A stretch of 51,423 bases of DNA, taken from contig WAJV01000086.1 in assembly GCA_015523725.1 (NCBI GenBank), forward strand, positions 1 to 51,423, in the 5' to 3' direction. The notes beneath the pieces were generated by a model that was not told the origin of the DNA, ran no database searches, and was given only the letters and a program-made list of their open reading frames with translations. Below are positions 32,075 through 34,676 of the stretch, piece by piece. The DNA is from Candidatus Geothermarchaeota archaeon. GTDB taxonomy: Archaea > Thermoproteota > Nitrososphaeria > Geothermarchaeales > JDFR-13. Position 1 is the first letter of the stretch; each line of letters starts with the position of its first letter. A program made the position numbers and the translations under genes.

Positions 32075-33124
32075 GTGGTGTTTGTTGTGAAGCCTGTGAA
32101 TGGTGTTGGTATATTTGGATATGGGGCTTATATTCCTAGATATATAATTGAGAATAGTTCGATTGCTAGTGTGTGGGGGAAGTTGTCTACACCGATTAAG
32201 AGTAAGACTTTTCCTTCCTATGATGAAGATAGTTTAACTATTGCTTATGAAGCTTGTAGAATTGCGTTAGAGTCGTCTGGGGCGCCTAGGGACAAGATTG
32301 GGGCTATATATATTGGGTCAGAGTCTAAGCCTTATGCTGTTAAGCCGTCTGGGACAGTTCTTGTTGATGCCCTCGGCTTGAGTAGGAATATATTGTCAGC
32401 TGATTTCGAGTTTGCTTGTAAAGCTGGTACTGAGGCTATTCAAGCGGTTTCTGGGCTCATTGCATCTGGCATGATTGAGTTCGGTATTGCTATCGGCACC
32501 GATACTTCTCAGGGCAGGCCTGGGGATGAGTTGGAGTATACTGCCGCTGCCGGTGGTGCTGCTTTTGTTTTGAGTAGGGCTTCGAATGGGGTTGTTGCGG
32601 AGATTGAGGCTTCTAATTCATATGTATCTGATACACCGGATTTTTGGAGGAGGTCGGGTGAGAAGTATCCTAGGCACCTATATAGGTTTACTGGTGAGCC
32701 GGCGTATTTTCACCATATAATTACTTCAGTTAAGCATTTTTTTGAGGAGTATGGTTACTCGCCGAGGGATTTTGATTATGCGATTTTTCATCAGCCTAAC
32801 TCAAAATTTCCACAGCGTGTTGCGAAGATGCTTGGTTTTACAATGGATCAGATTAGGCCAGGTTTACTATCGCCCATTATAGGTAATACTTATTCCGGTG
32901 CTACTTTGGTTGGTTTAGCCGCTACTCTGGATGTATCTAAGCCTGGTGATAGAATATTACTTGCTAGTTTTGGCTCTGGCGCGGGGAGCGATGCTTTTTC
33001 ATTTGTGGTAACTGATTTGATTGAGGAGCGTAGGGCTAAGCCTCCTCTTAAGTCTTTCTTGGAGCGCTTGGTTACTAAGGATTATTCTACCTATGTTAGG
33101 TATAGGGGTAAGTTATGGGTCTAG
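32075..33124 (+). CDS. hydroxymethylglutaryl-CoA synthase
   Basis: IYIGSESKPYAVKP, ADFEFACKAGTEAIQA (Cys), FHQPNSKFP (His); catalytic residues present. Confidence 0.94.
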   Translation: MVFVVKPVNGVGIFGYGAYIPRYIIENSSIASVWGKLSTPIKSKTFPSYDEDSLTIAYEACRIALESSGAPRDKIGAIYIGSESKPYAVKPSGTVLVDALGLSRNILSADFEFACKAGTEAIQAVSGLIASGMIEFGIAIGTDTSQGRPGDELEYTAAAGGAAFVLSRASNGVVAEIEASNSYVSDTPDFWRRSGEKYPRHLYRFTGEPAYFHHIITSVKHFFEEYGYSPRDFDYAIFHQPNSKFPQRVAKMLGFTMDQIRPGLLSPIIGNTYSGATLVGLAATLDVSKPGDRILLASFGSGAGSDAFSFVVTDLIEERRAKPPLKSFLERLVTKDYSTYVRYRGKLWV

Positions 33125-33127
33125 GGG

Positions 33128-34288
33128 GTGGATATTATGGATAATAATGTTGTAGTTGTTGGTTATGGTATGGTTCGGGTAGGGGAGTATTGGTATAAAG
33201 ATATTGTGTCTATTGGTGTGGAGGCGGCTGAGAGTGCGTTGGAGGCTGCTGGGAATCCTGATATTGATGCGTTTTATGTGGGTTCTGCATTGAGTTCGGC
33301 TCTTGGTATCCAAGGTAATGTTGGTCTTCATATTGCTGACGAGATTGGTTTGGATGATTTTATTGTTGAAACCATATCATCTGGCGGTGTGTCCTCGGGT
33401 CTTGCATTCATCAATGGACTTCATTATTTGGCGTCGAGACATGGTTATGTTTTAGTGGGAGGTGTTGAAAAGACTAGTGATAATTTGCCGACTGAGGTTT
33501 CGGAGGCGGTTTTGGTTGATTTGGATAGGAGGGTTATGAAGTATAGTGGTTTGACTGAAGCTGGGTTGGCTGCTATTTTGGCGCGTCTATATATGGAGCG
33601 TTACGGTGTTGATAGGAGTAAGATCACTCAGATATCTGTGTTGGATCATGAAAATGCTGTTGATAATCCTTATGCAATGTTTAGGAAGGCTGTTACTTTG
33701 GATATGGCTCTATCATCACCTATTGTGGCAGATCCATTAACTATATTTGATGTAAGTCCTTATGGTGATGGAGCAGCTTTTCTTGTATTGACTACTAAAG
33801 ATAGGGCTATTGAGGATGGTTTGAGGTATGTTGAGGTGGCTGGTTATGGATTTGCAAGGAATCGGGTTCCGATAAATTATAGGGAGGATATCCTCAGTTT
33901 TAGGGCGACTGCCAAGGCTGTTGGGGATGCTTTGGGTTCTGCAGGTATATCTTTGGATGATTTAGATATTATTGAGTTATTTGATTCATATTCTATCTCT
34001 GGATTATTGGCATTGGAAGGTATTGGTGTATGTGAATCTGGATCATCTGCAAACGAATTTTCTAGAGGGATGTTTAGGCGTGGGATGAGGCCATCAATTA
34101 ATACTTTTGGTGGTTTGAAGGCTAGGGGTTATCCTATAGGTGCTACAACCGCGTATCAGATTTCTGAGGCGGTTATTAGGCTATTGAGCGATTCTGATGA
34201 TTACAGTACGGCATTGATTCACTCGATGACTGGTTTTGATGATGAGGCTTTGGCAATTATTTTGAGGAGAGGTGGTTTGAATGCCTGA
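33128..34288 (+). CDS. thiolase-family protein (SCP-x-like) with substituted catalytic residues
   Basis: ALSSPIVADPLTIFDVSPYGDGAAF and GGLKARGYPIGATTAYQ are thiolase-like; position between HMGS and DUF35 genes. Confidence 0.88.
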   Translation: MDIMDNNVVVVGYGMVRVGEYWYKDIVSIGVEAAESALEAAGNPDIDAFYVGSALSSALGIQGNVGLHIADEIGLDDFIVETISSGGVSSGLAFINGLHYLASRHGYVLVGGVEKTSDNLPTEVSEAVLVDLDRRVMKYSGLTEAGLAAILARLYMERYGVDRSKITQISVLDHENAVDNPYAMFRKAVTLDMALSSPIVADPLTIFDVSPYGDGAAFLVLTTKDRAIEDGLRYVEVAGYGFARNRVPINYREDILSFRATAKAVGDALGSAGISLDDLDIIELFDSYSISGLLALEGIGVCESGSSANEFSRGMFRRGMRPSINTFGGLKARGYPIGATTAYQISEAVIRLLSDSDDYSTALIHSMTGFDDEALAIILRRGGLNA

Positions 34289-34676
34289 GATAACTGAGTG
34301 GAGGGATAGGTTGTGGAGGTATAGGCTAGTAGGTTCTAAATGTTTGTCGTGTGGGGCTAGGTATTATCCTCCACGCAATAGTTCTTGTATCAAGTGTGGC
34401 GGTGAATTGGTGGATGTTGAATTGCCTAGGCGGGGTAAACTGCTTTCCTATACTGTCATTTATCAAGCACCTGGAATATATAGATTTGCCTCGCCTTACA
34501 TTGTAGGCTTTATTGAGCTTGAGGATGGGACTAGGTTGTTTGCTATGCTCACTGATGTCGAGCTGGATGAGGTTAAGGTTGGTATGGAGGTTGAGGCTAC
34601 ATTTAGAAAGCTCTATACATACGGTGATTCGGGGCACATTGTTTATGGTATTAAATTCAGGCCTCTAGTAACTTAG
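34281..34676 (+). CDS. DUF35 zinc ribbon/OB-fold protein
   Basis: CLSCGARYYPPRNSSCIKCGGELVDVELPRRGKLLSYTVIYQAP. Confidence 0.95.
   Translation: MPEITEWRDRLWRYRLVGSKCLSCGARYYPPRNSSCIKCGGELVDVELPRRGKLLSYTVIYQAPGIYRFASPYIVGFIELEDGTRLFAMLTDVELDEVKVGMEVEATFRKLYTYGDSGHIVYGIKFRPLVT

Follow-up and report, generated by a model that had tools for sequence, protein, structure and literature searches.

At the point where membrane lipid synthesis begins in archaea, the HMG-CoA synthase (HMGS) complex is a standard case of substrate channelling, and the locus described here raises the question of why such an operon should retain a thiolase that lacks the residues of thiolase catalysis. The window, by which we mean the whole 51,423-nucleotide stretch of DNA that was analysed, contains three consecutive genes on the forward strand. 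The first (positions 32,075–33,124) encodes an archaeal-type HMGS that scored 466 bits against TIGR00748 and 491 bits against NF003274, both above the cut-off. Its catalytic Glu83, Cys115 and His239 are all kept, as a preliminary description of this DNA had proposed, and are invariant among 14 aligned sequences. Three bases separate the HMGS stop codon from the GTG start of the second gene (33,128–34,288), an ORF of 386 residues. Its product is a thiolase-fold protein without the thiolase catalytic residues, denoted here the pseudo-thiolase, that scored above the cut-off for both Thiolase_N and Thiolase_C_1. The score against NF053570, the NCBIfam equivalog for archaeal acetoacetyl-CoA thiolase, was 216 bits, below the cut-off of 600. 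The third gene (34,281–34,676) overlaps the second by 8 nt and encodes a DUF35 (ChsH2-type) zinc ribbon and OB-fold protein (PF01796 and PF12172, both above the cut-off), in which the four zinc-ribbon cysteines noted previously (Cys 21, 24, 36 and 39) are invariant in 12 aligned sequences. HMGR was also found in the window genome, which is 73% complete.

The closest solved relatives of the pseudo-thiolase by sequence alignment are the thiolases of P. furiosus (7yvy, 224 bits) and M. thermolithotrophicus (6esq, 168 bits). Alignment with these two archaeal structures and 16 relatives confirmed that the thiolase catalytic positions are replaced: the Cys and both His are absent. The nucleophilic Cys corresponds to Gly87 (codon at 33,386–33,388, forward strand), with ISSGGVSSG equivalent to VEAACxSGG. 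The preliminary description had equated VETISSGG with VExACASGG; it was right that there is no Cys, but its register was off by three residues, as judged from the conserved Ser89. The shift does not alter the conclusion that the Cys is lost. The His of the HDxF motif is replaced by Phe285 (33,980–33,982, forward strand; motif FDSY) and that of the GHP motif by Tyr335 (34,130–34,132, forward strand), both as originally described. The reading of DVSP for DCSP as a further catalytic loss did not survive, since active enzymes vary at this site (DASP in 7yvy, HCSP in 6esq). The only Cys in the protein, Cys302, lies outside the motif and is not conserved. An AlphaFold model of the pseudo-thiolase had a mean pLDDT of 90. 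The structure that it matched best by query-normalised TM-score (0.91) was the thiolase from the M. thermolithotrophicus complex (6et9/6esq). The model thus has a thiolase fold like that of 6ESQ chain A, and the gene lies in an HMGS-thiolase-DUF35 cluster. Because three catalytic positions are lost jointly in a protein that is well aligned and confidently modelled, chance or misalignment can be rejected.

The M. thermolithotrophicus complex (6esq/6et9) consists of the same three genes and folds, and the catalytic residues of the window HMGS are likewise intact. However, the window thiolase lacks the Cys and the His residues of HDxF and GHP, and should therefore be unable to make the intermediate that is channelled in the known complex. 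PFC_04095 (7yvy), the P. furiosus thiolase and nearest solved relative in sequence (34% identity), retains CASGG, HDAF and GHP, whereas the window protein does not. Another archaeal protein of thiolase fold, Sulfolobus tokodaii ST0096 (4YZO), likewise has no nucleophilic Cys, with Ser in its place (TSGSGG), but this protein retains both His, unlike the window protein, and its counterparts in family f30, described below, are not beside HMGS. The PhlABC acyltransferase of Pseudomonas protegens (5M3K) resembles the window trio in being a three-part complex in which one condensing partner has no catalytic residues, but in mirror image, with a dead HMGS-like subunit (PhlA) and an active thiolase-like one (PhlC) (PMC6392133).

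The idea that this is an oddity of the window genome was rejected by surveys of both the family and the phylum. None of the ten further genomes in the family has the Cys (Gly in six, Ala in two, Asp and Glu in one each), and in each of the two trees described below the family forms a single Cys-less group with full support. The catalytic triplet differs among the three genomes of the window genus, being Gly-Phe-Tyr, Gly-Phe-Asn and Gly-Phe-His. Gene order (HMGS-thiolase-DUF35) is conserved in all ten family loci in which HMGS is visible (an eleventh contig begins inside the thiolase), and the thiolase reading frame is open in every relative.

For the wider survey, HMGS loci were taken from the best 80 matches among named genomes, a set biased towards relatives of the window HMGS, and from 151 genomes sampled evenly across the phylum. 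A linked thiolase was found for 190 of 205 HMGS ORFs, together with DUF35 in 169 of the 190. Once duplicates, fragments and four paralogues of HMGS had been taken out, 177 thiolases linked to an intact HMGS were left from archaea and Chloroflexota; the Cys is absent in 104 and present in 73. The Cys-less copies have Gly (31), Asp (26), Glu (15), Ala (5), Ser (4), His (3) or Thr (3) at this position, or Asn, Gln or Leu (one each), and in 14 the loop is missing or unalignable. In the phylum sample alone, the Cys is absent in 54 of 86 linked thiolases and 20 of 33 families; records titled Chloroflexota lack it in 29 of 33 cases. A cultured Chloroflexota isolate, Thermanaerothrix daxensis (L068), has Asp-Asp-Asn at the three catalytic positions of its thiolase-like protein. 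HMGS retains its Glu, Cys and His beside every Cys-less thiolase for which the HMGS is complete. The finding is real and broader than the preliminary description supposed, and the window operon is best regarded as a variant of the known complex.

Several other arrangements were seen among these loci. Loci L213–L216 are HMGS-like paralogues that have lost the catalytic triad (TGP, TLY, TLY and TVS) and adjoin a Cys/His/His thiolase, the mirror of the window operon and comparable to PhlABC. In L197, L198, L200–L209, L217 and L218, HMGS and DUF35 are fused into a single ORF of ≈500–540 residues, and upstream of these fusions is a thiolase-like gene with motifs YDQS and GNPxGA from which the nucleophile loop is missing. 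In family f16, three linked thiolases (L139, L140 and L142) have the Cys and the HD His, with Asn at the GHP His, possibly a first step of decay; other members have Thr/Ser-Phe-His or Glu/Asp-His-His.

The state of the Cys position required nine changes on a FastTree phylogeny of 182 rows, at least six of these on well-supported branches, and eleven changes, at least seven of them forced, on a 106-row site-mixture tree with the catalytic columns masked. Such counts give no direction in themselves, and the changes are read as losses because functional thiolases use the Cys as their nucleophile. A tendency for the Cys and the GHP His to be lost together had a consistent direction among independent pairs (≈4.5 of 7), with a median p of 0.06, and is not claimed here. 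The ratio of thiolase to HMGS distance was 1.79 in 44 Cys-less pairs and 1.16 in 26 Cys-bearing pairs (Mann-Whitney p = 3e-6; the pairs were nearest matches from a greedy selection, so their independence is approximate), so that relative to HMGS the Cys-less thiolases evolve about 1.5 times faster. The DUF35/HMGS ratio did not differ between the two groups (p = 0.36). Within the window genus, where synonymous sites are partly saturated, thiolase dN/dS was 0.24 and 0.16 in two pairs, compared to 0.09 and 0.04 for HMGS, and there were no stop codons. The combination of rapid change and low dN/dS indicates that selection is relaxed at some sites while constraint persists. Sites that are fixed in the presence of the Cys and free in its absence include those of the active-site motifs (86, 87, 285, 288, 335, 366 and 368), and 30 sites are fixed in both groups, e.g., Gly112, Lys115, His174, Asp214, Gly215, Lys331 and Gly338.

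If the linked thiolase is inactive, acetoacetyl-CoA would have to come from elsewhere. The preliminary description had proposed a search of the remaining genome for a Cys-containing thiolase, and a Cys/His/His enzyme (L035) with its own DUF35 gene was found on contig C6. The window genome also encodes a second Cys-less thiolase-like protein (L036, G000:C73:8134-9258; motifs GGATP, FNPY and GHP) with an adjoining DUF35 gene and HMGS unlinked. Each of the 21 genomes whose linked thiolase is Cys-less has an unlinked thiolase, and in 20 of the 21 there is an intact one. By contrast, an unlinked intact thiolase was found in only 5–6 of the 16 genomes in which the linked thiolase has the Cys, and in most of the others the linked gene is the sole thiolase. 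This contrast was significant when counted by genome (Fisher p = 5e-5 to 2e-4) and by family (12 of 13 versus 3 of 10, p = 0.006). Thiolase and HMGS are unlinked in families f10 and f25, and the one thiolase of this type encoded elsewhere in those genomes is Cys/His/His; in f29 (L287, L289 and L290) a Cys-less thiolase (Asp-His-Phe) is still found beside DUF35 with HMGS elsewhere in the genome. There is one exception to the supply rule, which counts against the explanation that we favour. In two f30 genomes (L286 and L288; G173 and G106; ≈99% complete), HMGS is present and the linked thiolase is Cys-less, but no Cys thiolase was found; the only other thiolase is a Ser/His/His protein of the ST0096 (4YZO) kind, beside DUF35.

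We consider it likely that the pseudo-thiolase is a subunit dead to chemistry that has been kept as a structural partner of HMGS and DUF35, with acetoacetyl-CoA provided by a separate thiolase. A retained pseudo-thiolase had already been suggested in the preliminary description, and is supported by the lost active site, the kept frame and gene cluster, purifying selection (dN/dS 0.16–0.24) and the separate Cys/His/His enzyme. In 6ESQ, all three proteins contribute to the interface at which CoA binds (PMC6392133), and the CoA site is common to thiolase and HMGS (PMC12329534); HMGS could therefore still need a thiolase that is itself inactive. The pseudo-thiolase would most likely still be part of the HMGS/DUF35/thiolase complex and contribute its portion of a CoA site built jointly by the three proteins, which would allow HMGS to bind its CoA substrates. 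Help in building this shared site is, in our reading, what best accounts for its retention, and of the roles offered earlier (scaffold, acyl-CoA binding, allosteric), that of a scaffold with a shared CoA site would fit best. Acetoacetyl-CoA would be made by a different thiolase, in the window genome probably the Cys/His/His enzyme on contig C6, and would reach HMGS via the free pool rather than by hand-over within the complex. Three further observations count against this explanation. The HDxF position is still His in 57 of the 104 Cys-less copies, and some residual chemistry could be present in those lineages. Furthermore, a linked thiolase is missing from ten of the HMGS loci in the phylum sample, and genetic linkage is therefore not obligatory. 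Lastly, the window genome is incomplete (73%).

The conserved core could also be explained if the dead pocket bound acetyl-CoA or acetoacetyl-CoA and tuned HMGS allosterically, since many of the glycines and of the Lys, His and Asp residues typical of the thiolase core are kept in both Cys-bearing and Cys-less copies. The lining of the catalytic center, however, varies within a single genus (Gly-Phe-Tyr, Gly-Phe-Asn, Gly-Phe-His), unlike that of a conserved ligand sensor, and we regard a regulatory subunit of this kind as unlikely. The same variability bears on the idea that the protein has turned into a CoA enzyme of another kind, e.g., an aldolase like Ltp2 or Sal, as the replacements at the three sites differ between close relatives and thus do not constitute a conserved new catalytic set. 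The Ltp2-ChsH2(DUF35) and Sal-Shy(DUF35) aldolases (6OK1, 9MYR) do resemble the window protein in being DUF35-bound thiolase folds with other catalytic residues and no nucleophile (PMC12329534), and in 24 of the 104 Cys-less copies the HDxF His is replaced by Tyr, at the site of the catalytic Tyr in the YDHF/YDCY motif of Ltp2/Sal. In the window protein, however, the motif is FDSY and this Tyr is replaced by Phe285, a change (Tyr to Phe) that abolished activity in Sal (PMC12329534). In addition, Ltp2 and Sal have a hydratase partner, whereas the operon partner here is HMGS. Identification of the window protein as an aldolase of this type is therefore unsupported, and new catalysis in general appears quite improbable, more so than a regulatory role.

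That the protein might still be a thiolase, with Ser84, Ser85 or Ser89 in place of the Cys, is suggested by the proximity of Ser84/85 to the site and by the invariance of Ser89. However, Ser89 is equally invariant in enzymes that have the Cys, as part of their CxSGG motif, Ser84/85 vary within the family, and both catalytic His are lost; a serine thiolase is accordingly very hard to credit. We give just as little credence to a functionless, decaying pseudogene. The gene evolves quickly compared to HMGS, as a pseudogene would, but the frame is open in all relatives, dN/dS is 0.16–0.24, the trio is conserved, and the loss of the Cys is ancient, being common to the whole family. The pseudogene reading was rejected on the grounds of reading frames, dN/dS and synteny.

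Our preferred reading, a structural partner of HMGS and DUF35, can be extended beyond the window. On balance, and with somewhat less confidence than for the window protein itself, we favor the view that the thiolase of the complex has repeatedly and independently turned into a pseudoenzyme in archaea and Chloroflexota where another thiolase is present, that it persists as an obligate builder of the CoA site of HMGS, and that isoprenoid synthesis in a large share of these lineages proceeds without channelling of the intermediate. We found no mention of a dead thiolase in the HMGS complex in the open literature, the founding PNAS 2018 paper lying outside that search. Given the recurrent loss of the Cys in archaea and Chloroflexota, the textbook hand-over between the two enzymes probably fails in many of these organisms. 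If more than half of the sampled complexes do have a dead thiolase, annotation of this protein as acetyl-CoA acetyltransferase would be wrong in those lineages, and channelling would not explain why the complex has been conserved in them. Comparison of naturally occurring live and dead versions would then allow a direct test of what a non-catalytic partner does for HMGS. Together with PhlABC, in which the HMGS-like subunit is dead and the thiolase is live, the window complex would represent the other of two mirror-image forms of one architecture.
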